From: a virus
Reading direction: 5' to 3' (one strand)
DNA length: 34,173 bases
Virus record (IMG/VR): IMGVR_UViG_3300013132_000131
Span: 1-34,173 of that record
How positions within the stretch are numbered: position 1 is the first letter of the stretch; the number at the start of each line of letters is the position of its first letter. The notes under the pieces are model-generated. The model searched no databases, was not told the DNA's origin, and worked only from the letters and a program-made list of their open reading frames with translations. The translations under genes were made by a program, and so were the position numbers. This document shows positions 2 through 30,495 of this stretch, piece by piece.

Positions 2-3000
2 ATTCTCGGCACATTTGGGTTAGGTCTGGTTGCTTTAGAATCTGGATTGACTGGTATTTTATTAATTGCTGCTACGATAACTGCTGTTTCTTATATATTG
101 GGTGTTGGTAAGTATGATAAATATCCAAATGTTGCTTGGACCGCTAGTGTTGGATTGGCAGCAACTGCGTTAGGTCTGCCGGCTTTAGCTTTAGGTGTTG
201 CAATTCTCGGAACACTGGGTCTTGGTATGGTTGCTTTAGAAATGGGTCTATCTGGAATCCTATTAATAGCTACTACAATAACTGCTGTTTCTTATATATT
301 GGGTGCTGGTAAGTATGATAAATATCCTACTCCTTCTTGGGTGGGTAGTGTTGCATTGGCTTCATCTGTATTTGGATTACCAGCGTTGGCTTTGGGTGTT
401 GCAATTCTTGGAACATTTGGATTAGGTATGGTTGCTTTGGAGTTGGGTCTTTCAGCTATTTTATCAATATCACACACAATGGTTGCTGTTGATAAGATAC
501 TTTCTCGTGGATCATGGGATAAGGGTCCGACAGAGGCTTGGTCAAAAGGAGTTTCTTCAGCTCTTAGTGCCTTTTCACCGGTTTATCAAATTTTATCAGA
601 TTCTCAAGATTGGTTTTTTAAAGGACCATCAATTTCTGATTTTTCATCAGCAATTCAAACTATATCTATGGGTATAGTTACTGCTGCTAAGAATTTGGCG
701 GTTGGTGATGGTGTTTATAAAAATGGTCCGACAGAGGCTTGGTCAAAAGGAGTTGCTACCGCAATTAAAGGATTTTCTTCAGTTTATGAAATGTTGGATG
801 ATTCCATTGGTTGGTTTGCTGGTCCTAGTATTGAAGATTTTTCCAAAGCAATTCAAACTATATCTACTGGTATAGTTACTGCTGCTAAGAGTTTAGCAGT
901 TGGTGAAGATGTTTATAAAAATGGTCCGACTGAAGCCTGGTCTAAGGGAGTTGCTACTGCAATTAAAGGATTTTCTTCAGTTTATGAAATGTTGGATGAT
1001 TCCATTGGTTGGTTTGCTGGTCCTAGTATTGAAGATTTTTCCAAAGCAATTCAAACTATATCTACTGGTATAGTTTCTGCTGCTAAAAGCTTAGCAGTTG
1101 GTGAGGGTGTTTATAAAAACGGTCCAACGGAAGAGTGGTCAAGTGGAGTTTCATCTGCATTGAGAGCATTTTCTCCTATTTATCAGTTGTTGTCAGATTC
1201 TGATGGTTGGTTCGATTCTCCACCGAGCATTGATGATTTTGTCATTGCAATTAAATCTATGGCTGGTGGTATAGTTGAGGCGGCTAAAAGTTTGGCAGTT
1301 GGTGAGGGTGTTTATAAAAACGGCCCAACAGTTGAATGGGCTGATGGTGTTTCTTCTGCTTTAAGAGCGTTTACTCCTATTTATAAATTATTATCTGATA
1401 GTAGTGGTTGGTTTAATTCTTTACCTGATGTTGATGATTTTGTTACCGCTATTAAGTCTATGTCTGGAGGTATAGTTGAGGCAGCTAAGAGTTTAGCGGT
1501 TGGTGAGGGTGTTTATAAAAATGGACCAACAGTTGAGTGGGCTGATGGTGTTTCTTCTGCTTTAAGAGCGTTTACTCCTATTTATAAATTGTTGTCAGAT
1601 AGTAGTGGTTGGTTTAATTCAGCGCCAGATGTTGATGATTTTGTTACTGCTATTAAGTCTATGTCTGGAGGTATAGTTGCCGCTGCTAAGAGTTTAGCGG
1701 TTGGTGAGAGTGTTTATAAAAATGGTCCTAGTTTTGAATGGTCAAATGGTGTAGGATCTGCTATTAAGGGATTTATGCCCGTTTATAAGATATTATCAGA
1801 TAGTAGTGGTTGGTTTAATTCAGCACCTGATGTTGATGATTTTGTTTCAGCAATCAAGTCTGTTTCAGCTGGTATAGTTGCAGCGGCTAAGAGTTTAGCA
1901 GTTGGTGATGCTGTTTATAAAAATGGTCCTAGTTTTGAATGGTCAAATGGTGTAGGTGCTGCTATTAAGGGTTTTATGCCTGTTTATAAGATGTTATCTG
2001 ATAGTAGTGGTTGGTTTAGTTCGGGGCCTGATGTTGATGATTTTGTTTCAGCAATCAAGTCTGTTTCAGCTGGTATAGTTGCGGCAGCTAAGAGTTTAGC
2101 AGTTGGTGATGGTGTTTATAAAAATGGTCCTAGTGCTGAATGGTCGAGTGGTGTTAGTGCTGCTATTAAGGGATTTATGCCTGTTTATAAGATGTTATCT
2201 GATAGTAGTGGTTGGTTTAGTTCAGCTCCTGATGTTGAAGAATTTACTTCTTCGATTAGATCGGTTTCTATGGGTATAAAGAGTGCTAGTGTTATATTAG
2301 CAGGTGGTAATTATACTAAGTATCCGAGTTCTGAGTGGTCATCTGGTGTTTATAAGGCTATTTCAAAATTCCAGAGAATTTTGAATTCGACATCAATTTT
2401 TAATTTTATTAAAATGTCTAGTTTTAATAAGTTGGTTAATTCTATTGTTGAGACTTCTCGTAAATTATCAAAAGTTAAATTTAGTACTGTTGCTAATAAT
2501 AATTTAAACAATATGATTAATAGTATTAGGTCATTTAATAAATTAAAGAACAGTTTGAGGTTTGGATTTGGTAAATCATCAGTTGAGTCTATAGTTGATG
2601 AAATTGTTAGAATATCTATTAGATTTTCAAATAATTCTAAGTATTTTTCAAATAATATGTCTAATAAATATATTAAAAATATGATATCAAATATAAGTAG
2701 TTATGTTAAACTACTTAAAACAATTAAAGATAGTCAAAAGAAAGGTTTAATCGATTCTAAAACTTTTGATAAAAAGTCAATTAATAATATAACTGATGGT
2801 ATAGTTAAGATGGCTAAATCATTTGACAAGTTGTCAAAATCTTTAAGCAAATTTACATCATCTATTAAGAATGTTAATACTGATAAATTAAAACAATTAA
2901 ATGATTTGACATCTAATATCGCTACTTTATCGGTTGTTGATGCTAAGGCTCTTGATAAGGTACTTAAAGTTTTGGAATCTAGATCTTCAGCTTTATCTAA

Positions 3001-3253
3001 AATGTTAGAGGGTAAATCTAAATCTGGTTCTGGTGTTGGTAAGAAAGATGGTGAAAAGACCGGGGTTAATTCTAAGACTATTGTTGGTAAAGATGTCAAG
3101 AAGAGTCCAGAGCTGATTAGATTAAATACAATAGCTCAATTATTATTCAATTTAAACCAAATCTTCTCTGAGGGTTCTGCATTTGATGACTTTATTTATA
3201 AAAAATTAGGTGAAAGTGGTGGTGGTGCCGGTCCTGCTTCACAAACTAAGTAA
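2..3253 (+). CDS. Repeat-rich tail protein, probable tape measure (5' end outside window)
   Basis: The frame is open from base 2 and the first residues already belong to a repeat, so the gene starts upstream of the window; the TTG at 47 is not a real start. Residues encoded from about 107 to 2310 form at least eleven tandem units of 65-67 residues. The first units are hydrophobic (ALALGVAILGTFGLGMVALE); the later ones share a YKNGP...EWs.GV...L.dS.GWF...P..ddF..aI pattern followed by AAKSLAVG. The last ~310 codons are non-repetitive, Lys/Ser/Asn-rich and probably helical. A long, repetitive, partly hydrophobic protein beside tail genes fits the tape measure, which sets tail length and is ejected with the DNA. 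The functional call is inference; another long virion protein is possible. Confidence 0.6.
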   Translation: MLGTFGLGLVALESGLTGILLIAATITAVSYILGVGKYDKYPNVAWTASVGLAATALGLPALALGVAILGTLGLGMVALEMGLSGILLIATTITAVSYILGAGKYDKYPTPSWVGSVALASSVFGLPALALGVAILGTFGLGMVALELGLSAILSISHTMVAVDKILSRGSWDKGPTEAWSKGVSSALSAFSPVYQILSDSQDWFFKGPSISDFSSAIQTISMGIVTAAKNLAVGDGVYKNGPTEAWSKGVATAIKGFSSVYEMLDDSIGWFAGPSIEDFSKAIQTISTGIVTAAKSLAVGEDVYKNGPTEAWSKGVATAIKGFSSVYEMLDDSIGWFAGPSIEDFSKAIQTISTGIVSAAKSLAVGEGVYKNGPTEEWSSGVSSALRAFSPIYQLLSDSDGWFDSPPSIDDFVIAIKSMAGGIVEAAKSLAVGEGVYKNGPTVEWADGVSSALRAFTPIYKLLSDSSGWFNSLPDVDDFVTAIKSMSGGIVEAAKSLAVGEGVYKNGPTVEWADGVSSALRAFTPIYKLLSDSSGWFNSAPDVDDFVTAIKSMSGGIVAAAKSLAVGESVYKNGPSFEWSNGVGSAIKGFMPVYKILSDSSGWFNSAPDVDDFVSAIKSVSAGIVAAAKSLAVGDAVYKNGPSFEWSNGVGAAIKGFMPVYKMLSDSSGWFSSGPDVDDFVSAIKSVSAGIVAAAKSLAVGDGVYKNGPSAEWSSGVSAAIKGFMPVYKMLSDSSGWFSSAPDVEEFTSSIRSVSMGIKSASVILAGGNYTKYPSSEWSSGVYKAISKFQRILNSTSIFNFIKMSSFNKLVNSIVETSRKLSKVKFSTVANNNLNNMINSIRSFNKLKNSLRFGFGKSSVESIVDEIVRISIRFSNNSKYFSNNMSNKYIKNMISNISSYVKLLKTIKDSQKKGLIDSKTFDKKSINNITDGIVKMAKSFDKLSKSLSKFTSSIKNVNTDKLKQLNDLTSNIATLSVVDAKALDKVLKVLESRSSALSKMLEGKSKSGSGVGKKDGEKTGVNSKTIVGKDVKKSPELIRLNTIAQLLFNLNQIFSEGSAFDDFIYKKLGESGGGAGPASQTK
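107..2310 (+). repeat. Tandem ~201-bp coding repeats
   Basis: Unit boundaries, taken at the GKYDKYP / GVYKNGP position, fall near 107, 308, 509, 710, 908, 1106, 1307, 1508, 1709, 1910 and 2111. The spacing is 201 bp, except 198 bp for the units starting at 710 and 908. A last degenerate copy (NYTKYP, near 2309) follows after about 195 bp. Every spacing is a multiple of three, so the reading frame is kept. Bases 761-877 and 959-1075 are identical. Confidence 0.9.
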
Positions 3254-5154: not shown

Positions 5155-5182
5155 AAAAAAACCTCTTTAAAGAGGTTTTTTT
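5155..5182. terminator. Bidirectional terminator
   Basis: A seven-base A tract, the arms CCTCTTT / AAAGAGG and a seven-base T tract form a fully symmetric hairpin between the convergent genes ending at 5153 (+) and 5181 (-). It can act as an intrinsic terminator in both directions. The minus-strand stop codon overlaps its edge. Confidence 0.9.
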
Positions 5183-8100
5183 ATTTTATATAAGCAATTG
5201 GTTCAAATGGTCCGATTGGTTCAATATATTTTATCGGTGAACTTAAATCTTTTAGAGTTCTTATTTCATAGTTTTTTCTATCTCTATAAATCATACCATA
5301 TCCATTATCACAAGTTAATTCTATCGTTACAAATGGATCTATGTTTGCATCTAAAGTAAAATTGAATGGTGTTAAATTATCACCTTTTCTATTTTCATTT
5401 ATAGTCTGTACGGGCTCATAACCTATTTTTCTCCATTCTGTAATTATTACCCAGTTATAACCATCTCCGTTATCTATGGATGGTGGTGGATATTGGTAGT
5501 TTAATCCATTTAGTTCATATGTTATTGGATTTTCAATTTCGTTTCCTAGACCTGTGTATGAGTAGTATTCATTTTCATATCTAACTATGTTTCCAACTTC
5601 ATAATTACCAGTAGGTTCCCATTCTGATATTAGTGCTTCCCATTTAATGGGGCTGTTCATTTTATTTGAGTTTATAACAGATTCGTATATATTCCCATAA
5701 TAGATAACTTTTTCACCCTTAGAATATTCAGTAAATGCTTCCCATTCTTTGTAGGTTTTCCAAGTCCTTATTTTAATATCATAATAGTCTGGTAATTTTA
5801 TTTTATCCAAATATTCGTTATGTGGTTTTATATTAAGATCATTATTTATTATTGTATATAAATCTAGCACACAGTTATAAACGGTTGATCCTGAATTTAT
5901 CGGTAGTAGATAAGCTTCATTTAATTTAAAGGATATAGGTGTCATATTTTCACTATTTTTGAAAATTCTAACATCTGAAAGTTTGTGATTTATTGTTGTT
6001 TCTGCATTTAAATAAGAGTTACCCGTTACATCTAATATCTTATGTGTTAATGGTATTATATTCCCTTTTAGCCATTTTTTTAATCCTTGTAGTTTTATCG
6101 TTACTTCATCTAATGTGTAGTTTAGTATTATATCACCATATTTATTTGTTATATCATATGATAAGTTGAATAGATTGGTTTCTTCAAAATTTTCATTAGG
6201 CATGGTATTTTTAAGAAAGTCATTATCATTCCAACCTTCTATTGTGTTGTCAAATATATCAGGTATTTCAACTTTAAATAACTTTAAGAAATTTGGTGAT
6301 TTGTTATCTATATTTTTATAATATTCATTTAATTTTAGATCATTATATCCGAAATAATTTATTGCGTTTATTATAGACTTATATGATCCTACATATGGGA
6401 ATATTTCATTTCTAACTAATAAGAGTTCTTTTCTTTTTTTGTTTAAGAAAGTCCAGTCTATTCCTCCTTCGTAGATATCATAATCTTTAAAGATGTAAAT
6501 ATCATTTGGTGATATATTTTTACCGATATTATTTAATTGCGTTTTAAATCTAAAATCTTCTATTTCTGTTTGTCCATATACATTGAATCTTCCTATTTCT
6601 TTATCTAATACTTTGAATGTTGTTTCGGTTCTTAATGATATTGTTGGGTGTAGTATAACTGATGTTTCAGGATATAACATATCCGTAGCTATATTTAGAA
6701 AATCAACGACTAATTGTTTAGCATACACTTCTCTTATTTTGAATATGGATCCATTATTTTTTGATGTGTATTGATTCTCTTTGCTTGTTAAGTCCTTTAT
6801 TGTTAGAGATATTAATTGTCCTGTTTTTAATCCTCTTCCTGTAAAGTAGATATTATCATTAGTATTTATTGTTATAACACCTCTTTTATCGGTATCTGAA
6901 CTTGTTAATATTAGTCCCAGAGTTTCGAATTTTAAGGTTGGTGTTTTATAATCGGAGTTTGATTGTATTTTAAATTCAATATTTTCTTTCTTAAACATTT
7001 GTAATACAGAAGATTTAGGTCCTTCGTCATTGGATTTAAACCCAATGAATAATTCTATCGCTTCTGGTTCTGATGAAAAGTTTTCTGAATCATTTATATA
7101 ATCAAGTGATTTTGCTACAACATCAAAAACGGTTTGTTGATATTCTGGTTTATCTATTTTGCTTAGATCTTTATTTGCGGTCTTATTTAATGGTACATCA
7201 ATAAGTGGTGATGTTCCCGTGTATTTATATGAACTAGTGCCGGATGATATTTGATCTCCTGATATATCATAAAGAAAAAATTCTGGATTACTATCATCAT
7301 ACCATTCCCAGTAATATTTTACCGGAACTTCACCGATATAATTTTCTCTGGGTCTTCTTACATACTCTCTACTTTTTATCCATATATTTTCTCTTGATGT
7401 GTAATTTAGATCCAATGTTCCGTATATATCCTCTTTTATAGATTCGTTTATTTCACTTTTATAATTAATGACATTGTCATAATAGACATTTATTTCATAT
7501 AATTTATTGTTGTTGTTTATTAATATTTTGTTTCTATCTGTGTTGAATATGATTTTATCATTCACATCAGATGTGTTTGGTAATTGTTTAGATTTTAGAG
7601 TTTTTCCAAATTGATCTAGTATTGATATTTTATTTTTTTCATAAATATAAATAAATGAGTCATAATAATTTATGCATATTGATATCAAATTAATATCTGT
7701 ATAGTTGTAGATATTTGTATTATCGGTATTATTTAGATTGTTTATAAATGAAATCTCGTTGTCTTTTAGAGAGACTATGTTATTGCCTATTGTGTTGGAT
7801 TTTACAATATCACTCGATTTTAGTATTGGTCTCACTGTATCATCTATAATTCTATATAAATTTCTTGAGGTGTCTCTTACTATTATACTCCCGTTTGTTG
7901 AGTCATATTCAATAAAACTTTTATCTAAGTTGGATAATTTAAATGTTTTTAACCATACTGATTTTGAACTAATTTGATATATATCATCACCACTACTTTT
8001 TATTAAGTATATTTTATTTTCCTTCTCATTTACTTTTGTTATAGATATAGATTTAGATGGTAAACTAATTATAGTTTTTGATGTGATTATGTTGTTATTG

Positions 8101-10895
8101 TCGTTATTTGTGATATAATAATCACCAGTTAGATTATTAATAGATATTGTTTTAAAATCTACTTTTGTAGTGAGTATTTTACTTGTTATATCTATAATAG
8201 GATCTACAGTTATTAAACTTTTTTTTAATAAACAATAAATAAGATTATTGAAATTGTTATATTCTAATTTTATACCATCGTCAGTTCCTAAGTTTATTGT
8301 ATTTTTTATTTTATTTGTAAATGAATCTATCTTTATTAATATTGTATTTGTTGATTTTTTAGCTAAAATATAATATGAGTTAGATAGTTGAACAGTTAAT
8401 ATGTCATAGATTTTATCTACAGATATTTCAATTTCATTTAAGTCAAAATCTTTAACATTTGATTCTATTTTTGTGGAGAATAAAGTTTTGTTGAAATGAT
8501 TTAAATTTAGATTCGAATCTTTTATAAAATCAGGTGTATAACTTGCTGTTATTCCAAATCCTAAACTAAATCCAATTGTGTTGTAAGCTGATGAATTATA
8601 AATTGAGTTAGTTAGACCCCAGAATGGTCCTTTGTAGCTAAGACCTACTTTATTTTTATCTACATATTGAACGTTATATTCTTGGTTATCCCAAACAAAT
8701 CCCGAGTTATTAATTGATATTATCATCCCGGTTGATATTCCTATATTTTCAAAATTTTTATCATCAAACTCATCATCTTTTAGTGTTATTTCGTTTGAGG
8801 AGATAACAATTCCCTTATTTCCAGTTTTTTTATTTAAAATATAAAAGTCTTCATTTCCAGGTATTTGTATTCTACCGTTATTTATTGATATATCTATTCT
8901 ATTGTTTGGGTATATTGTATCGACTTTAATTGAGTTATTTATATTCTTAACTATTATTCCATATTCTAATAATTTAATTCTCCATTTATTTACCCATTCT
9001 CTTAGAGTTATAGGTATTGTTGTGGACATTTTTATTTCATATGGTGTGTCATTTATTGTTATCGTTAAGTTTTTTGTTAAAGTTTTTGGATCATCACTTG
9101 TTAAGTTTTTAAAAACTAATAATGAGTTTTCTACATAGAAATTTCCACCGGATCCAACCTCAACTTTCAGTGATAATGGTACATTTGGGAAAAATGTTTT
9201 TAATATTATTGAGTTTTGGTAGTTTGATGATATTCCAATAAAATCAATTTCTGCTACGATTCCAATGGTGTATAATTTCACATAGTTAATCGTTAACCAA
9301 TTTCGTAGAGTTCTGTCTATTGTTCTTTCTAAATTTGGTATTCCTCCATTGTAAATCCATATAACATCTGACTCGTAAATTTGTCCGTTTATTGTTAATT
9401 TAATTCCCCAGTCGTCAATATCTGTGAATACTACATTATATTGTGTATTATTTGAATAATCATAATTTAACTCATGATTTAGATCTTCTGATATTTCTAT
9501 TAGTTTTTCGTTCTTTTGAATGGTTGATGATACTAAGACCTTATTGTCTGTTGTATAGTAGAAGTTAACCTCTGCATATTTTGAAGAATATTTTAAGTCA
9601 GCTTTCAACTCATTATTTGAAAAATATAAATCAATATTATAGAGATCTAAATCATTTTTAAATTTCTCAGCTACTGATGATAATGTTGTTTCAGCATCTT
9701 TTGTCCAACCATATTCAAAGTAATCTTTATTTGTTGTTAGATATATTTGACATTTTTGTAAGTATTCATCTTTCAAACCGCTTACTGGTAGGTATTTCGT
9801 TTTATTCCAATAATCTGAGTTTTCTGGTGTTATTGTTGAGTTATTTACTTGATCTTGTGTATATGCTTTTACACATTCCCATATTTGATTATTATATATG
9901 ACTTGTGATTGTGTTGCATAGTAAGTTTTATTTAAAACTTTATTAAATTGTGGTATAATATCCACTCTATAATAATTTATATTTTGTTGTGACCCTGATA
10001 TTGTAAATTCCGATCCAGGCTTCAGGTTTGTTGGAATTTCTAAAAAGTTATTAAAATATATTTTGCTATCTTTTATGTTTATTTCACCCTCATATATTTT
10101 TGGTAAATCACTTTTTGTTATTACTTCAATTGAAAAAGTTCCGGATCCAATTAATTTACTTGGATTTGTCGAGTATTCGAAATGTATCAGATCTATTAAT
10201 TTATCATTTAATATAGTGTATGTACCATCATTTAAATTGCTATTTACTACATTGAGTTTTTTACCATTGAATAACTTATCATAAAAATTTGGTTCATTCC
10301 AATTTGATAAATTATTCTCAAACTTTGAGTTTACATAGTTATAAATTCCTATTGAATTTACCGAATTTAATAGATATAAGTCTTTCCATGTTTCCGAATT
10401 TGAATATATCGATGAGTATTTAGATTCAAATGTTGCATTATCAACATCTGATATTATCATTATAGCATCATTTTTGGTTGACACAACAGTATAAACTCTC
10501 ATATCATCTGTAAATTCTAATATTGGATTGTTAAAGCTGACTAATGTACCAATTGGGAATTTTATGTCAAAATTATCACCATATATCCACTTAGAATAGA
10601 AGTTCCAATCGTTATTTACTGGCTCTATATTAGTTATTATTTGCTTTTGTAGAGTTTTCTCATAGAAGTGTACACCCCATTCGTTAAATAATTGAAATTT
10701 ATTTAATGACAATCTATTTGGTGATTCTAGTTCAATAGAAGGTACTTTTTCCATAACATATAAACCATATGTTTTATATGTATCTGATGAGTTTTCATGA
10801 AAAAGGATATCACCTTCAAATCTTTCATCTATAAAATCATATTTGAAATTTAAACTATCTCCTTCTTTGTTAAAGAAAATTAATGATTCAGACAT
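5181..10895 (-). CDS. Giant baseplate / tail-fibre-type structural protein
   Basis: A 1904-residue, Asn/Ile/Ser-rich, beta-dominated protein without signal peptide or membrane segments. Residues ~322-370 and ~1713-1760 resemble chitin-binding-like CBM5/12 modules (YSKGEKVIYYGNIYES followed by a Trp; YNNQIWECVKAY), and ~1758-1825 may be a third copy. Residues ~830-1140 are a run of short repeated beta strands (e.g. YYILAKKSTNTILIKID) resembling a beta-propeller. Residues ~1487-1530 (VRNEIFPYVGSYKSIINAIN, then YFGYNDLKLNEYY) recall the insertion domain of baseplate tail-protein-I families. The mix of a baseplate-like domain and glycan-binding modules suggests a host-recognition structure at the tail tip. 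It is convergent with the tape-measure cluster and has its own late-type promoter. Exact T4 equivalent unknown. Confidence 0.65.
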   Translation of the reverse strand: MSESLIFFNKEGDSLNFKYDFIDERFEGDILFHENSSDTYKTYGLYVMEKVPSIELESPNRLSLNKFQLFNEWGVHFYEKTLQKQIITNIEPVNNDWNFYSKWIYGDNFDIKFPIGTLVSFNNPILEFTDDMRVYTVVSTKNDAIMIISDVDNATFESKYSSIYSNSETWKDLYLLNSVNSIGIYNYVNSKFENNLSNWNEPNFYDKLFNGKKLNVVNSNLNDGTYTILNDKLIDLIHFEYSTNPSKLIGSGTFSIEVITKSDLPKIYEGEINIKDSKIYFNNFLEIPTNLKPGSEFTISGSQQNINYYRVDIIPQFNKVLNKTYYATQSQVIYNNQIWECVKAYTQDQVNNSTITPENSDYWNKTKYLPVSGLKDEYLQKCQIYLTTNKDYFEYGWTKDAETTLSSVAEKFKNDLDLYNIDLYFSNNELKADLKYSSKYAEVNFYYTTDNKVLVSSTIQKNEKLIEISEDLNHELNYDYSNNTQYNVVFTDIDDWGIKLTINGQIYESDVIWIYNGGIPNLERTIDRTLRNWLTINYVKLYTIGIVAEIDFIGISSNYQNSIILKTFFPNVPLSLKVEVGSGGNFYVENSLLVFKNLTSDDPKTLTKNLTITINDTPYEIKMSTTIPITLREWVNKWRIKLLEYGIIVKNINNSIKVDTIYPNNRIDISINNGRIQIPGNEDFYILNKKTGNKGIVISSNEITLKDDEFDDKNFENIGISTGMIISINNSGFVWDNQEYNVQYVDKNKVGLSYKGPFWGLTNSIYNSSAYNTIGFSLGFGITASYTPDFIKDSNLNLNHFNKTLFSTKIESNVKDFDLNEIEISVDKIYDILTVQLSNSYYILAKKSTNTILIKIDSFTNKIKNTINLGTDDGIKLEYNNFNNLIYCLLKKSLITVDPIIDITSKILTTKVDFKTISINNLTGDYYITNNDNNNIITSKTIISLPSKSISITKVNEKENKIYLIKSSGDDIYQISSKSVWLKTFKLSNLDKSFIEYDSTNGSIIVRDTSRNLYRIIDDTVRPILKSSDIVKSNTIGNNIVSLKDNEISFINNLNNTDNTNIYNYTDINLISICINYYDSFIYIYEKNKISILDQFGKTLKSKQLPNTSDVNDKIIFNTDRNKILINNNNKLYEINVYYDNVINYKSEINESIKEDIYGTLDLNYTSRENIWIKSREYVRRPRENYIGEVPVKYYWEWYDDSNPEFFLYDISGDQISSGTSSYKYTGTSPLIDVPLNKTANKDLSKIDKPEYQQTVFDVVAKSLDYINDSENFSSEPEAIELFIGFKSNDEGPKSSVLQMFKKENIEFKIQSNSDYKTPTLKFETLGLILTSSDTDKRGVITINTNDNIYFTGRGLKTGQLISLTIKDLTSKENQYTSKNNGSIFKIREVYAKQLVVDFLNIATDMLYPETSVILHPTISLRTETTFKVLDKEIGRFNVYGQTEIEDFRFKTQLNNIGKNISPNDIYIFKDYDIYEGGIDWTFLNKKRKELLLVRNEIFPYVGSYKSIINAINYFGYNDLKLNEYYKNIDNKSPNFLKLFKVEIPDIFDNTIEGWNDNDFLKNTMPNENFEETNLFNLSYDITNKYGDIILNYTLDEVTIKLQGLKKWLKGNIIPLTHKILDVTGNSYLNAETTINHKLSDVRIFKNSENMTPISFKLNEAYLLPINSGSTVYNCVLDLYTIINNDLNIKPHNEYLDKIKLPDYYDIKIRTWKTYKEWEAFTEYSKGEKVIYYGNIYESVINSNKMNSPIKWEALISEWEPTGNYEVGNIVRYENEYYSYTGLGNEIENPITYELNGLNYQYPPPSIDNGDGYNWVIITEWRKIGYEPVQTINENRKGDNLTPFNFTLDANIDPFVTIELTCDNGYGMIYRDRKNYEIRTLKDLSSPIKYIEPIGPFEPIAYIK

Positions 10896-24126: not shown

Positions 24127-25074
24127 ATGTCACAAAATGAAATGAGTGAAGAAGATTACTTAAAAAGACATCTTCAAGATTTAGAAGATGGTAAGAAATC
24201 TCAAAATTTTATAAATTCTGATATTCCGGTATCTAATACAAATACATCTGCAGATAGTAATAGAGCATCTGATCTACAATACTTCAATTTTGATGTAAAA
24301 GAATTGCCTTGTGGTCAATTCTATCCAGTTGGTACACTTTTTATGGTTAGACCTGCTCAAGTTAAAGAAATTCAAGCATATTCCATGGTTGATGATAATA
24401 ACTTTTATGATATTGTTGAGAAAATGAATGATATGTTACAATCATGTGTTAGAGTTAAGTATGCTGATGGTAGAATTTCATCTTATATGGATATTAAAGA
24501 TCAGGATAGATTATTTCTAATATTTTTAATTAGAGAATTAACCTTTCAACAAGGTAATGGTCTATCCGTTAACTTAACATGTAAGTGTGGTGAAGAGAAT
24601 GTTATAGAATTGAAAAGAGATAACTTTGTTTATCATGAGATAGATGAGAAGTTATTAAAGTTTTATAATAAAAACACCGGATCATATCACTTCAATACTG
24701 TTAATGGTAAAAATTTTGAATTGACTCCTCCAAATATTGGATTACAAAAGGCATTTACAGATTATATTATCAAAGAAAATAATGATAAAAGAAATCCAAA
24801 CTTAGCTTTCTTAAAAATTATTCCTTTTATGTTAGTTGGTAGAAGTAACATTACATATGATGGTATTAAGGCTAAATTAAAAGAGTTTGAACAAATGGAT
24901 CAAACATCATTTCAATTTCTTAATGCTGCTGTTGGTAAAATGACATTTGGTATCAAAGAATTGAAAAAGACTTGTTCGTGTGGTGAGGAGATCCGCACGG
25001 AAATGCAGTTTCCCAACGGAGCCTCAGGTATTTTCGTTATTCATGACGCCTTTGAAGCATATATTAAAGAATAA
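24127..25074 (+). CDS. 26: Baseplate hub protein gp26-like (T4_baseplate family)
   Basis: A 315-residue protein. After a ~50-residue polar N-terminus, the segment VKELPCGQFYPVGTLFMVRP, then AQVKEIQAYSMVDDNNFYDI, LQSCVRVKYADG and DRLFLIFLIRELTF matches the T4 baseplate protein family that includes gp26 (208 residues in T4). Two CxCG pairs, CKCG (152-155) and CSCG (283-286), could together bind a zinc ion. The gp51-like gene overlaps the 3' end, as expected from the T4 gene order 26-51. Bases 24985-25050 are about half G+C (34 of 66) and use codons such as CGC, ACG and CCC that are rare elsewhere in this window. Confidence 0.75.
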   Translation: MSQNEMSEEDYLKRHLQDLEDGKKSQNFINSDIPVSNTNTSADSNRASDLQYFNFDVKELPCGQFYPVGTLFMVRPAQVKEIQAYSMVDDNNFYDIVEKMNDMLQSCVRVKYADGRISSYMDIKDQDRLFLIFLIRELTFQQGNGLSVNLTCKCGEENVIELKRDNFVYHEIDEKLLKFYNKNTGSYHFNTVNGKNFELTPPNIGLQKAFTDYIIKENNDKRNPNLAFLKIIPFMLVGRSNITYDGIKAKLKEFEQMDQTSFQFLNAAVGKMTFGIKELKKTCSCGEEIRTEMQFPNGASGIFVIHDAFEAYIKE

Positions 25075-25291
25075 GCTTCTTTTACAAAAACACTTTCATA
25101 CACAGGAATGGTCGATGGATAATTGGCCATTCTGGATGTTTGAAGAAAATATTAAGCTTGTTAACGAGATTATTGAAGAAGAAGATAAGCAACGAAAATC
25201 AGAGGAAGACTCACAGAGGTCTGGGATGCCAGATACTTCATCTATGATGAAAAATGCTACTAATTTCGCAAGTAATATTCCTAAATTTTAA
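25043..25291 (+). CDS. 51: Baseplate hub assembly protein gp51-like
   Basis: An 82-residue protein read in the +1 frame relative to gp26. The ATG at 25043 (MTPLKHILKNKLLLQKHF) overlaps the end of gp26 by 32 bases; a GTG at 24980 would extend the overlap to 95 bases. The segment EWSMDNWPFWMFEENIKLVN followed by a charged EEEDKQRKSEED helix resembles small proteins annotated as gp51 in T4-type phages, which act in baseplate hub assembly. In T4 gp51 is longer (249 residues). The order 26-51 and the overlap support the call; a programmed +1 fusion to gp26 is an alternative. Stop codon lies just before the terminator. Confidence 0.55.
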   Translation: MTPLKHILKNKLLLQKHFHTQEWSMDNWPFWMFEENIKLVNEIIEEEDKQRKSEEDSQRSGMPDTSSMMKNATNFASNIPKF

Positions 25292-25314
25292 AACCCAGTT
25301 AAAAACTGGGTTTT
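25290..25314. terminator. Bidirectional terminator
   Basis: Arms AAAACCCAGTT / AACTGGGTTTT with loop AAA. The stop codons of both convergent genes (25291 +, 25299 -) lie in it. Confidence 0.9.
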
Positions 25315-26945
25315 ATTTCAAATTTTATTTTACCACAATCCCAAATTTTATTTAAGTTTATCTTTGATGTGTATTGGCTTTCGGTTAGATTTGTATCTAA
25401 TATTTTTAGTTTTGATTTTGTGAAATTTTGTTTATGTTTTCTTTTATTATCTATAATATATTTATAATCTGGTCCAGTTTCATTTATTTTATTGAATCCT
25501 AGTTTAAAATATAAATTTCCAATACTCCAATCAAGATCTGCATAGCTTATAATTCTATTTGGCTTGAATTCTTTTATAAAATAATTAAGTAGTTTAGAGG
25601 CTCCTCCAACCACATTAGTATTTAATAGGTTACAAAATCTAGAAAGGTTCCATTCCTCTTCTTTCATTTTAATTCTACCTTCATTTTTATTAAAAGTCAT
25701 GACCGATACCAATTCATCATCATGGAATAATCCAATTTTTATATTTGATCTATCAGATCCCTGTATGTGATTTTTATTTAAAAAATCGGTTGTGTTATCT
25801 ATTTCCTTTATGATGCATTTTCTGGCCCATATTTTTCTTTGGTTTATTTTCAATAAGTTTTTTATTTGACTTTTAATAATTTCACCTTTTAGATTCCAAT
25901 CGTCTTCCCATATGTGTATTATTCGTATACCTCTTTCTTTAAAGAAATTGGTTTTATCTATATGGTAGTTTTTATTTTTAAATTTATCTGAATGCCAGTA
26001 AAGACCGTTGAATTCAAATCCAATTTTTAAATCGGGTAAATAAATATCAATTTCAAAGGAGTCTCTATATGGATTTATAATATCTCCATTATATAAAGAA
26101 CTAATATAATTGAATAATTCAACTTCTTTTATAGAATTATGTTCTCCTATTGGGTAACATATTGTACACAATTCTATATTATTTTTAGTTCTTCCGTAAT
26201 AATTATCAGTACTTATTTTAAATAAGTGGTTTTTTGAGCACTTGAATATGTTAAATCCCTCTTCATATTCAATATAATTTACATCTTTGCATATTTTAAA
26301 ATTAGATCTACCCTCTTCAGTTTTAAAAACATGATCTTTTGAATATTTTTCTAAACAAGTTTTTTTAAATTTCTCTTTATACTCTTTGGTTTTTGTATAA
26401 CTATCAACTCCCCATTTTTCTAAACAAGTTTTCTTTGATTTTTCTAAATATTCTTCGGTTTTTGAATAATTATCAACTCCCCATTTTTCAATATATGTTT
26501 CTTTTGATTTCTTTAAATATTCTTCGGTTTTTGAATAATTATCAACTCCCCATTTTTCAATAGATGTTGATTTTACCTTATCTTTATATTCATCGGTTTT
26601 CGAATAATGATCAACTCCGTATTTTTCAATTAAAGTTTTCTTTGAATTTTCTCTTAATTCTTTATTATTCGATGAGCATTTGTTTGAGCAAAAACTTTTA
26701 TAACCATCTTTCCAATTCATATTAAATGAAACTCTGTTCATTGAGCATTCTTTACAATAAACATAATCCGGCTTATTGCTTACCCAGTGCCATATTTTTT
26801 GTCTAAATGGTATTTCTAAATTTTTGGTATATTCAATTATGGTTTGGTATAATGAATAGTTATTATTCTTTATATATGATTCTCTTAATCTATTTGGTGA
26901 TTCAGATACGATATTATCTATTACTTCGAGTCTTTCTTGAACCAT
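25299..26945 (-). CDS. VSR-like (EDxHD-type) homing endonuclease with repeats and GNAT-like domain
   Basis: A 548-residue protein in four parts. Residues ~60-92 hold a CKEC...CSNKC zinc motif. Residues ~105-210 are five tandem 23-residue repeats (IEKWGVDNYSKTEEY...), probably DNA-reading. Residues ~295-350 contain FEIDIYLPDLKIGFEFNGLY followed by WHSD and later IHIWEDDW, the layout of the very-short-patch-repair-like EDxHD homing endonucleases, with acidic and His residues in place. Residues ~375-500 (LVSVMTF, LSRFCNLLNTNVVGGASKLL, ADLDWSIGNLYFKLGF) resemble an acyltransferase (GNAT)-like fold found at the end of such proteins; its role is unclear. It lies between gp51 and the UVR gene. Probably active. 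Confidence 0.82.
   Translation of the reverse strand: MVQERLEVIDNIVSESPNRLRESYIKNNNYSLYQTIIEYTKNLEIPFRQKIWHWVSNKPDYVYCKECSMNRVSFNMNWKDGYKSFCSNKCSSNNKELRENSKKTLIEKYGVDHYSKTDEYKDKVKSTSIEKWGVDNYSKTEEYLKKSKETYIEKWGVDNYSKTEEYLEKSKKTCLEKWGVDSYTKTKEYKEKFKKTCLEKYSKDHVFKTEEGRSNFKICKDVNYIEYEEGFNIFKCSKNHLFKISTDNYYGRTKNNIELCTICYPIGEHNSIKEVELFNYISSLYNGDIINPYRDSFEIDIYLPDLKIGFEFNGLYWHSDKFKNKNYHIDKTNFFKERGIRIIHIWEDDWNLKGEIIKSQIKNLLKINQRKIWARKCIIKEIDNTTDFLNKNHIQGSDRSNIKIGLFHDDELVSVMTFNKNEGRIKMKEEEWNLSRFCNLLNTNVVGGASKLLNYFIKEFKPNRIISYADLDWSIGNLYFKLGFNKINETGPDYKYIIDNKRKHKQNFTKSKLKILDTNLTESQYTSKINLNKIWDCGKIKFEIKPSF
26328..26630 (-). repeat. Tandem 69-bp coding repeats in the homing endonuclease
   Basis: Five units of 23 codons begin (in protein) at residues 106, 129, 152, 175 and 198. 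The central copies are almost identical at the DNA level (CAACTCCCCATTTTTC and TTCTTCGGTTTTTGAATAAT recur), which suggests recent unit duplication. Confidence 0.8.
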
Positions 26946-26993: not shown

Positions 26994-27022
26994 AAAAAAC
27001 CTATCTCTATGATAGGTTTTTT
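26994..27022. terminator. Terminator of the UVR gene
   Basis: Arms AAAAAACCTATC / GATAGGTTTTTT with loop TCTAT. The minus-strand TAG of gene 27951 lies in the loop. The terminator separates it from the homing endonuclease downstream on the same strand. Confidence 0.88.
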
Positions 27023-27951
27023 ATTTTATTAATTTTGTCTCTTATTTCAGCAGCCATTTCATAAAGTTCTGCATTTAAATATTCTTGCAATTTTCTTTCT
27101 AGTTTAGAAAGGTCTGGTTTTATTTCTTTTGTCTCAACAACTTTAACTTCTTCTTTTTTAGATTCTTCTTTTTTAACTTGTGGTATTTCTATAGATTTTG
27201 ATTTTTTGTAAAGTTCTTTTATTTGATTTCTGATAATAATAGCCTTTTCAAAGTTTTGAGTTTTTATACAATAATTTAGTTCTTTTTCTAATGATTTTAT
27301 AGTTTCAATATCTAAATTGGATATTTTCTCGTTTAAGAGGGAAGCTTCCTCATAATTTTCGGATTTAACGGCTTCTTCTAATTTATTATTTAATTTTTCT
27401 ATATAATCTCCTTTTTCCTTTCTAACTTTTGTTTTCTTTGTAATTAGTTCTTTACTATTATTTATAATCATATTAATTTCACCTTTTGATAGGTAGGAGA
27501 ATTTAAGGTTGAAAATTTTCTCATTATTTATTTCGTGAAATATTTCTTCACCCTCTTGTGTAAGATATACTCTATCACATCCTGATATTTTTAGTGTTTG
27601 TAGACTTAATTTTAATTCATTTAAATTTGATTTTTTTAAATTTATAAATTTTGTCTTACCTAATTTTGGTATTTTTACATATGAAAAATCAGTATCTGGG
27701 AAATTTTTAAGGTATTCAAATGATAATATATCTCTATATCTTTCTATTACATAAAGGTTATCTTTATCTGACATTGCTCCTATGAATACATGATACTCTC
27801 CTTCTTCGATTGCAAATAATCTTTCAAATTTCCAATTCTTGTGGTTTAAAAGAATTTCTATTTCTTGTAAATCTATTTCATCGCATATAGCACCTATTTG
27901 TTGTCTATTGTACTTTTTAAGATTGATACATTTTAGAGTAGCTAGATTCAT
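27007..27951 (-). CDS. Protein with three UVR motifs
   Basis: A 314-residue protein. The N-terminal ~165 residues are a mixed alpha/beta domain of no recognised family. The C-terminal half holds three UVR-type helical hairpins: KLNNKLEEAVKSENYEEASL (~185-213), LEKELNYCIKTQNFEKAIII (~218-247) and LERKLQEYLNAELYEMAAEI (~282-312), separated by a Lys/Glu linker (PQVKKEESKKEEVKVVETKE). UVR motifs mediate UvrB-UvrC contact and occur in McsA and ClpC-type proteins, where they serve protein-protein binding. No nuclease, ATPase or kinase motif is visible, so an adaptor for a host repair or protease complex is an attractive inference. It has a host-type promoter, pointing to early expression. Confidence 0.7.
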   Translation of the reverse strand: MNLATLKCINLKKYNRQQIGAICDEIDLQEIEILLNHKNWKFERLFAIEEGEYHVFIGAMSDKDNLYVIERYRDILSFEYLKNFPDTDFSYVKIPKLGKTKFINLKKSNLNELKLSLQTLKISGCDRVYLTQEGEEIFHEINNEKIFNLKFSYLSKGEINMIINNSKELITKKTKVRKEKGDYIEKLNNKLEEAVKSENYEEASLLNEKISNLDIETIKSLEKELNYCIKTQNFEKAIIIRNQIKELYKKSKSIEIPQVKKEESKKEEVKVVETKEIKPDLSKLERKLQEYLNAELYEMAAEIRDKINKIKNLS

Positions 27952-28004: not shown

Positions 28005-28020
28005 TTTTTTAATATATAAT
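28005..28020 (+). promoter_or_regulatory. Putative late promoter of gene 28039
   Basis: TTTTTTAATATATAAT, 19 bases before the ATG at 28039, divergent from the host-type promoter of the UVR gene. Confidence 0.55.
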
Positions 28021-28038: not shown

Positions 28039-30495
28039 ATGAGGTATATAGATAATAGAGAAACTTTTATACAAAGGAGTATTTCTAAAAAATTTGAGAA
28101 AACTCCATATTCTGAACACAATTTCCCAATTTATGAAGAGTATTCTGGTAGTGGTAGTGGAAAGGCAATGTTCACTAATAATATTGGTTGGAATGATTCT
28201 TTACTGGGTCGTTTAATAAATCATATTATAAGAAAGATTAAAATAAAATTAGCATCGGTCGTTAAAATACCTAGATTGATTAATAGACTTAATGCTGAGT
28301 TTGAAAAAATACACACTAATGGTTTATTATTGGCTACTTATGATGCTGATATTAAATATAAAATGGAATTTATCAAGGTGGAGGTTTATTCTTTTATTTT
28401 TGAGTTAAAAAAATCTATATCAGAGGGTGATGATGTATCTATTATAAAAAATTTGGCTAAGTCTGCATTGGAAAGCTTAGAGAAGGAGGATGATGAATTA
28501 GAGAATAAGAAAGAAATGATTGATGAGTTAAAAAAATTCTTAGATTTCTTAGAAAGTTATAAACCAGTTTCTAAAAATAGCTCAGGTGGTAATTCAACTG
28601 ATGATAATGGTTTATTTGTTGATAAATATGATTTATTGGTTAGTAATTTGACTTACTTATCAAAGATGTTGACTCAGTATAAGAGTATTAAAACAGATGT
28701 TGTTTCTCCTGTAAAAAAGGGTGTTCCGGTTAAAGAGAGTTTGATATTTGACTATCGATCATTTGTTGATGGTTTAAATGAGAGTTCTAATCCAGCAACT
28801 GCGTCTGTTATATCAAAAGAGCAGAAATATGCTTTTGATGCTTTTTCTAAACTAAAAGTTCAATTTCAAAACTTAGACAAAACTTTAAAAGGTTCAAAGG
28901 ATCCAATTGTTTCTACTGAACAATTATCAAAGATAATCTCAAATAAAGATAGTGAAGTTTATAAAAATTTCATAATTAAACTATATGTTGATATTGTTAA
29001 AAATTTAAATGGTCTTAATAAGACATTTATCGCGCCAAATTCGCCTCTGTATGAAAATTGGAATCTTAGAATTGATAAGTTGACTACTAGTGAGTTTTCA
29101 TCAATATCTGATAAAATGTCAAGATTTGCTTCTGTTGCTTTAAAATTCAAAAAGGCTGAAGAAGACGGAAATTCTCTTTATAATGAATATAATTTCGATG
29201 GTGTTGATTTGGGTAAAAATCTAAAGGGTTATGTTGATACTATGTCTCAGATAAAGTCTTTAAAGATTAATAAATCTAATGATGTTGATAATAGTGAGAT
29301 TGATAATAGTGAGATTGAGAAGTATTTTGAAGAAAATTGTAAATTAGTATTTTCTTTTGAGGTTGATGAAAAGATAGTTGAGGAGTTAAATGTTGAGCTT
29401 AAAAATATTAAAGTTCAGAGAGGATTTATTATTGATGGATTCGATCCGATTATTGAAATACTAAGAATTTTCAATCAAGCCTATAAAATATACATGACTC
29501 CGATTATATCTAAGAGAAGTCAAAACTTAGATGGTTCTGTAGCAGGTCCTAGTCCTGGAACATTATTGGAATATACTGATATGGGTAGTCAAGGTCCTTG
29601 GAGAAACAATAAGTTGTTTGATCAATGGGAAGACGCAGTGTTTAACATTTTGGGTGAAAGAAAGTATCAAGTTATTTTTGATAAGGATACTGTTCTTAGA
29701 GTTGGTGATGAGTTAAGAGAAGGTAAGGGTCCGAGATTAAGACAATTTATGACAGATTTATTAGATGGATCAAAACTTTATAAACCTGGTAGTGAGGGTA
29801 AAGGATCTCAGGCTAAATTACTTGATGAGTATTTTGATAAACCACCTACAGAAACACCTGTTAATACAGAACCTACTGGAGGATCTGGTACTGTAAGTGC
29901 TAATACTTCTATGCAAACTACTATAAATGAGAATTCAAAAGAGATACAAATATTAAAATTAAATGGTCCGGGTCCAGTTTATATACCTAGTAGAGGAACT
30001 TTCTTTATAATAGAGGGTACTTTAATTTCAGTAAATGAGTCTGCTGGTAGTCCGGGATCTCTTATTCAAATATTCGCACATTATATTGGAGATAATAAGA
30101 TTGCATTTGTTAGAAGTTTTGGTCCTTGGAAGAGACTTTTGGAACCTGTTAAGATAGAAAAAAATGAATTAAATAAAATGATTGAAAAGCCTAGACAGGA
30201 TAATGGCAACGCTTATAGTATAAATTATTTCAATTTAAACGACTTTAGAGTTTTACAAGTAAATAAAGAAGTTAAAATTACATATACTACAAAGGAAAAT
30301 TATTCAAAAAGTACCGAAATTGCTTTATCTATTAAAGATATTTATAAAATTTGTTTAAAAGAAGACGGTAAAGAAATGGTGAATTTTGATTTATCTAAAG
30401 ACTTTAAAGAATTTGAGCAAAAGTTTAGAACAATGGGTGTTGATTTTGGTTTTGTTCCAAATGCTAAAAATAAAATTGAAAAATACACAAAATGA
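28039..30495 (+). CDS. Large probable virion or head-internal protein
   Basis: An 818-residue protein of unrecognised family. The N-terminal ~45 residues (ending IYEEYSGSGSGK) look like a short leader before a Gly/Ser linker. Residues ~60-480 are helical and Lys/Glu/Ser-rich, with probable coiled-coil segments. Residues ~540-620 are basic and ~625-650 a Thr/Gly/Pro linker (TETPVNTEPTGGSGTV). The last ~170 residues look like a beta-rich globular domain (GPVYIPSRGTFFIIEGTLIS). No enzyme motif seen. It has a late-type promoter and overlaps the next gene by ATGA, and the tail sheath gene follows, so a virion or assembly role is likely. Confidence 0.65.
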   Translation: MRYIDNRETFIQRSISKKFEKTPYSEHNFPIYEEYSGSGSGKAMFTNNIGWNDSLLGRLINHIIRKIKIKLASVVKIPRLINRLNAEFEKIHTNGLLLATYDADIKYKMEFIKVEVYSFIFELKKSISEGDDVSIIKNLAKSALESLEKEDDELENKKEMIDELKKFLDFLESYKPVSKNSSGGNSTDDNGLFVDKYDLLVSNLTYLSKMLTQYKSIKTDVVSPVKKGVPVKESLIFDYRSFVDGLNESSNPATASVISKEQKYAFDAFSKLKVQFQNLDKTLKGSKDPIVSTEQLSKIISNKDSEVYKNFIIKLYVDIVKNLNGLNKTFIAPNSPLYENWNLRIDKLTTSEFSSISDKMSRFASVALKFKKAEEDGNSLYNEYNFDGVDLGKNLKGYVDTMSQIKSLKINKSNDVDNSEIDNSEIEKYFEENCKLVFSFEVDEKIVEELNVELKNIKVQRGFIIDGFDPIIEILRIFNQAYKIYMTPIISKRSQNLDGSVAGPSPGTLLEYTDMGSQGPWRNNKLFDQWEDAVFNILGERKYQVIFDKDTVLRVGDELREGKGPRLRQFMTDLLDGSKLYKPGSEGKGSQAKLLDEYFDKPPTETPVNTEPTGGSGTVSANTSMQTTINENSKEIQILKLNGPGPVYIPSRGTFFIIEGTLISVNESAGSPGSLIQIFAHYIGDNKIAFVRSFGPWKRLLEPVKIEKNELNKMIEKPRQDNGNAYSINYFNLNDFRVLQVNKEVKITYTTKENYSKSTEIALSIKDIYKICLKEDGKEMVNFDLSKDFKEFEQKFRTMGVDFGFVPNAKNKIEKYTK

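Follow-up and report, generated by a model that had tools for sequence, protein, structure and literature searches.

A phage protein with three UVR motifs

Which cellular or viral machinery would be addressed by a phage protein that carries three UVR motifs? The question is raised by the open reading frame at 27007–27951 (−) of a 34,173-nt window, i.e., the whole stretch of viral DNA that was analyzed (IMG/VR record IMGVR_UViG_3300013132_000131). The original prediction, made from the sequence alone, described an early protein with a novel N-terminal domain and no catalytic motif, expressed from a host-type promoter, and proposed that it is an adaptor or inhibitor that captures host nucleotide-excision repair or the Clp protease system. 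Its portal, sheath, tail tube, head closure, gp47-like nuclease and late sigma factor mark the window as T4-like. The nearest named relatives, LR745206 (635 kb) and LR756502 (642 kb), share with it a putative baseplate protein at 75% identity. Genomes over 634 kb fall within the Mahaphage clade, with predicted Bacteroidetes hosts (PMC7162821); we assign the window to the Mahaphage-type phages of Bacteroidota, whose genomes exceed 600 kb. The features of the locus are as follows:

27007–27951 (−): whole ORF, ATG start, 314 aa; N-domain, degenerate second N-domain copy (probable) and three UVR hairpins
27757–27951 (−): N-domain, residues 1–65, common to the whole family, predicted β-α-α-β-β, 35.7 bits
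27442–27657 (−): probable degenerate second N-domain copy, residues ~99–170, based on profile scores in orthologs
27313–27405 (−): UVR copy 1, 27.2 bits
27205–27303 (−): UVR copy 2, 38.1 bits
27118–27204 (−): Lys/Glu-rich charged linker from UVR 2 to UVR 3, pLDDT 41–63 around residues 251–280
27016–27111 (−): UVR copy 3, 27.8 bits
27971–27978 (−): TATATTTG, Bacteroidota-type −7 box (TAnnTTTG), 27 nt before the ATG
28009–28018 (+): TTAATATATA box before divergent gene G, late-promoter candidate
28039–30495 (+): gene G, divergent neighbor, 818 aa, no known family

The Pfam UVR model (PF02151) matched the whole protein in three stretches (E = 1.8e-20), and all three copies exceeded its curated gathering cut-off of 21.5 bits, as predicted. 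UVR was the only Pfam family above the cut-off, and BFN was not matched. In support of hairpins, AlphaFold2 predicted three helix pairs (residues 183–196/200–212, 215–230/234–252 and 281–293/297–312), mostly with pLDDT of about 80–97. All three copies were also kept in an ortholog of 57% identity and in two further orthologs. A search of PHROGs yielded no virion family (best E 0.0085, a partial match of unknown function), and the absence of a catalytic motif stands. A Foldseek search with the whole-protein model returned noise, in which Staphylococcus aureus ClpC entries appeared with probabilities of 0.33–0.80 and low TM.

Three known identities were considered and rejected. UVR copy 2 matched the C-terminal UVR of McsA, the protein-arginine kinase activator (NCBIfam, E 3e-8), but the 33.6 bits compare with a full-length cut-off of 210, and only the UVR part is alike. 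UVR copy 3 weakly matched NCBIfam UvrB models through the UVR motif alone; the helicase and nuclease domains of UvrB and UvrC are missing, and the UVR residues are of another class. Finally, no BFN (DUF151) domain (PF02577) was found, though the UVR residues are nearest to those of the BFN-UVR class.

The N-domain and its exchangeable tails

The single-domain N-domain model showed a β-α-α-β-β order followed by one helix (pLDDT 79), and the profile behind the 35.7-bit score was built from single-domain members only. The N-domain had no significant match in Pfam, PHROGs, PDB sequences or NCBIfam, and a genome scan with one 8-residue pattern (13 stretches), which is a narrow test, found no cellular relative. 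To this extent the predicted novelty held, but about 40 distinct relatives were recovered from viral contigs by iterated profile searches, the contigs being fetched by synteny and by N-domain. In ortholog L001, a second N-domain copy reached 13.2 bits, more than any of 2000 shuffles (best 9.4); L030 and L031 gave 7.5–8.6 bits, and a second match was likewise seen in G001 and G002. The window protein may hold such a degenerate copy too, although its own support is poor (3.2 bits).

Of about 38 family genes whose placement could be judged, 36 are divergent from gene G, and the window protein has both the N-domain and this placement. The exceptions are L116 and L119, and a second family copy in G004 also lies elsewhere; L127 is too short for placement. 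Tandem copies occur in L042 (two) and L132 (three). The C-termini of the family vary: four members end in three UVR copies, L037, L082, L133 and L143 in one, most in a DUF6576 hairpin, and others in a weak IDEAL-like hairpin (E about 0.01 only). Since a single type of N-domain is followed by UVR x3, UVR x1, DUF6576 or an IDEAL-like hairpin, the tail is an exchangeable module. The N-domain tree, of moderate support and with some long branches, requires 4 tail changes where the minimum possible is 3, and splits the UVR x1 members between two positions.

A literature search on DUF6576 found no paper. Each of six host genomes has one DUF6576, mostly in a membrane protein of 288–338 aa. In some other phage proteins the hairpin is N-terminal, and such hairpins may therefore be general pairing modules. 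Separately, we observed that giant phages carry several DUF6576 hairpins each (L197–L220), on otherwise different proteins and at either end, and that two proteins of related phages exceeding 400 aa (L192 and L189) end in a UVR-like tail and are otherwise without known domains.

Promoter boxes

The host-type promoter of the original prediction was confirmed by the TATATTTG box, and in 30 of the 40 family members TAnnTTTG was found in the 100 nt that precede the gene (2.7 expected by shuffling), mostly 24–40 nt ahead of the ATG; it is lacking in some tandem copies that lie downstream. In the window, it stands close before only three genes (16392, 17993 and the 27007–27951 ORF). The TTAATATATA-type box also precedes several other window genes on both strands. 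Judged only by promoter type, the 27007–27951 gene is probably made early by host RNA polymerase.

UVR class of the phage copies

We compared the phage UVR copies with those of six Bacteroidota genomes, whose UVR matches were of the UvrB, UvrC, ClpC and BFN types. No McsA was among them, which makes McsA, as a target, unlikely. UVR motifs being short, classes were called from only 32 residues, by gap-free BLOSUM62 comparison anchored on a conserved aromatic residue. The leave-one-out control placed 21/21 host UVRs in their own class, with one ClpC and one UvrC left out as missed by the anchor pattern. The nearest class was BFN-UVR for 14 of the 16 phage copies and ClpC for the other two, whereas UvrB or UvrC was nearest for none; single-UVR members reached the within-class range, and the copies of the window protein were less close. 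Moreover, no UvrB or UvrC was recognised among the UVR matches of related phages.

In plants, UVR-DUF151 proteins, EXE1/2 and ClpF were enriched with CLPC1-TRAP (PMC8889267), and a UVR–UVR contact between ClpF and ClpC has been suggested (PMC7966870). As in ClpF and UVR-DUF151 proteins (UVR2-4), which are CLPC1 interactors (PMC8889267, PMC7966870), the UVR of the window protein is joined to another domain, and its class is nearest to BFN(DUF151)-UVR; unlike them, it has neither YccV nor DUF151, and its N-domain is phage-specific. Because the nearest cellular UVR relatives bind ClpC, the UVR tail probably plugs a phage-specific domain into a degradation machine, the host's or the phage's own, and not into DNA repair. 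L009, L011 and L015 are BFN/DUF151 proteins encoded by phages; they bear a UVR tail, as their host counterparts do.

ClpC and ClpP of related phages

A ClpC-like ATPase with a UVR M-domain is encoded in LR745206, LR756502 and IMG/VR G003–G005, in most of them together with 2–3 ClpP-family proteins (L016, L014, L186, L187, L190; L169–L176). The ClpC-like proteins are 55–73% identical to cellular ClpC, with best matches in Bacteroidota. They start at D1 (TPVLD at residue 40, versus 182 in Pedobacter ClpC) and lack Clp_N, but retain the UVR, Walker and VGF (ClpP-docking) motifs. No Clp_N was found in LR756502, LR745206, G003 or G004, whereas LR756501 has a Clp_N-bearing homolog instead. ClpP-family proteins occur in 7 of 12 related records, 2–3 in each; some of these proteins are full-length, and some are short and perhaps head-maturation proteases. 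The N-domain gene and the ClpC gene occur together in G003, G004, G005 and LR745206, whereas LR756502 has ClpC and no N-domain family member. Neither ClpC nor ClpP was seen in the 34-kb window or in the fragments of the two phages nearest to it.

Once its NTD is deleted, S. aureus ClpC forms planar hexamers rather than the resting state; the NTD is where characterised ClpC adaptors bind, MecA also binding the M-domain tip; and M-domain contacts repress ClpC activity, de-repression being toxic (PMC12583610). A phage ClpC that has no NTD would therefore require a different docking site, and the candidate that we infer is the M-domain. In the literature searched, we found no description of an NTD-less phage ClpC or of a tail-swapping N-domain family.

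Proposed function and its alternatives

The reading that we prefer, at a probability slightly below one half (about 0.47), is that the protein resembles an adaptor or regulator which docks on the AAA+ unfoldase ClpC via its UVR tail, with the N-domain as the specific part. Host RNA polymerase would make the 314-aa protein, probably early. Its UVR hairpins would pair with the M-domain of ClpC, a coiled coil that itself contains a UVR, be it that of the host and/or the NTD-less one of related phages, the triple tail giving avidity on a ring-shaped partner. The N-domain would then bring a partner to ClpCP for unfolding or degradation, or change the activity of ClpC, and in relatives a single UVR or a different hairpin (DUF6576, IDEAL-like) would take the position of the triple tail. 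The contact with ClpC, the M-domain as its site, the timing and the partner of the N-domain are the steps that we infer, and the M-domain/UVR dock follows the suggestion made for ClpF.

Docking on ClpC is the best supported of the explanations considered. Several points nevertheless speak against it: characterised adaptors use the NTD, neither ClpC nor ClpP turned up in the window or in the fragments of its nearest kin, LR756502 pairs its ClpC with no member of the family, the UVR class call compares few residues, and hairpins of this sort may serve pairing in general. Capture of the host excision repair proteins UvrB and UvrC, which the original prediction had put beside the Clp system, is very improbable: the weak match of UVR copy 3 to UvrB models speaks for it, but none of the 16 phage UVR copies grouped with host UvrB or UvrC under a control that placed every host UVR correctly, and no such protein was recognised among the UVR matches of related phages. 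The Clp half of that proposal gained indirect support from the UVR class, the CLPC1 interactors, and the ClpC and ClpP of related phages. Docking could also serve an opposite end, with the UVR array occupying the M-domains of host ClpC and blocking or de-repressing ClpCP, either to protect phage proteins or to poison host proteolysis. Three tandem copies would suit such multivalent masking, the M-domain repression and toxic de-repression cited above (PMC12583610) would fit it, and so would the NTD-less ClpC carried by related phages. However, most family members have a single hairpin and a conserved N-domain, which would be superfluous in a pure blocker, and we hold an anti-adaptor of this kind to be quite improbable.

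If ClpC acted on the protein itself, the N-domain could be a Cro-like DNA-binding domain and the UVR, DUF6576 or IDEAL tail a degron, making the protein a regulator that is a ClpCP substrate rather than an adaptor. Lambda Cro structures were indeed the best PDB matches of the N-domain in Foldseek (probability 0.75, weak E of 0.2) and have the same β-α-α-β-β order; moreover, in nearly all members the family gene and gene G diverge, one side having a host-type box and the other, in the window, a late-type one. Yet a profile comparison with nine Cro proteins (hhalign) was not significant (P 0.11), Pfam gave HTH_26 in 1 of 29 family members (0.061) and no Cro-type match above noise, Cro is without a tail, no operator was found, and L116, L119 and the second G004 copy lie away from gene G. 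We therefore regard such a regulator as unlikely. It is improbable, too, that the UVR hairpins are only self-association modules of a structural or assembly factor encoded beside virion genes. The location among tail and head genes and the occurrence of UVR-like and DUF6576 hairpins on unrelated phage proteins fit that explanation, but the gene is opposite in strand to its late-gene neighbor and has a host-type box, its UVR copies resemble ClpC-interacting classes, and no virion family was matched.

A wider and rather doubtful extension of ClpC docking is that Mahaphage-type phages run a private degradation system of NTD-less ClpC, phage ClpP rings and hairpin-tagged proteins. Such a ClpC, probably de-repressed for want of an NTD, could not be steered by host adaptors that bind the NTD; UVR, DUF6576 and IDEAL hairpins would be its exchangeable addressing modules, with the window protein as the triple-UVR adaptor among them.

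By its UVR class and by gene content, the window protein is a candidate for the functional class of ClpC adaptors such as MecA, ClpS, Gp53 and ClpF. Phage Clp adaptors (PMC6873191) and phage-encoded Clp parts (PMC7824862) are already known. The adaptor-like Gp53 of Bacillus phage SPO1 is likewise proposed to engage host ClpC, and no enzyme domain was recognised in the window protein; however, the SPO1 host is a Firmicute, and the text consulted mentions no UVR tail (PMC6873191). Similarly, jumbo phages tap Clp systems through ClpS, ClpP, ClpA and ClpX, but that survey, as searched, gives neither a UVR-tailed adaptor family nor an NTD-less ClpC (PMC7824862). If docking on ClpC is correct, giant phages would redirect proteolysis via the middle domain of ClpC and not by the NTD route of characterised adaptors. 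A function would thereby be given to the UVR tail of BFN-UVR proteins and to DUF6576, both of them short modules, and the tails would form a natural set of ClpC-addressing tags that could be tested in vitro as well as in Bacteroidota.

Other genes of the window

A homing-endonuclease gene at 25299–26945 (−), absent there in L001, lies between the UVR gene and a baseplate-type gene. Farther away, 5181–10895 (−) encodes a protein of 1904 aa that matched no PHROG; its neighbors are on the other strand. The edge-open protein at 2–3253 (+) has many near-identical repeats of ~70 residues (YKNGPT..W....DSxGWF) and resembles a long virion protein, for instance a tape measure. The baseplate-type gene at 24127–25074 (+) overlaps a +1-frame ORF at 24980–25291 (+) by about 95 bases, as in L001, L003 and L004. 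The DNA of the overlap is nearly invariant across the four phages, which differ elsewhere, and this suggests dual coding or a programmed frameshift leading to a longer C-terminus.
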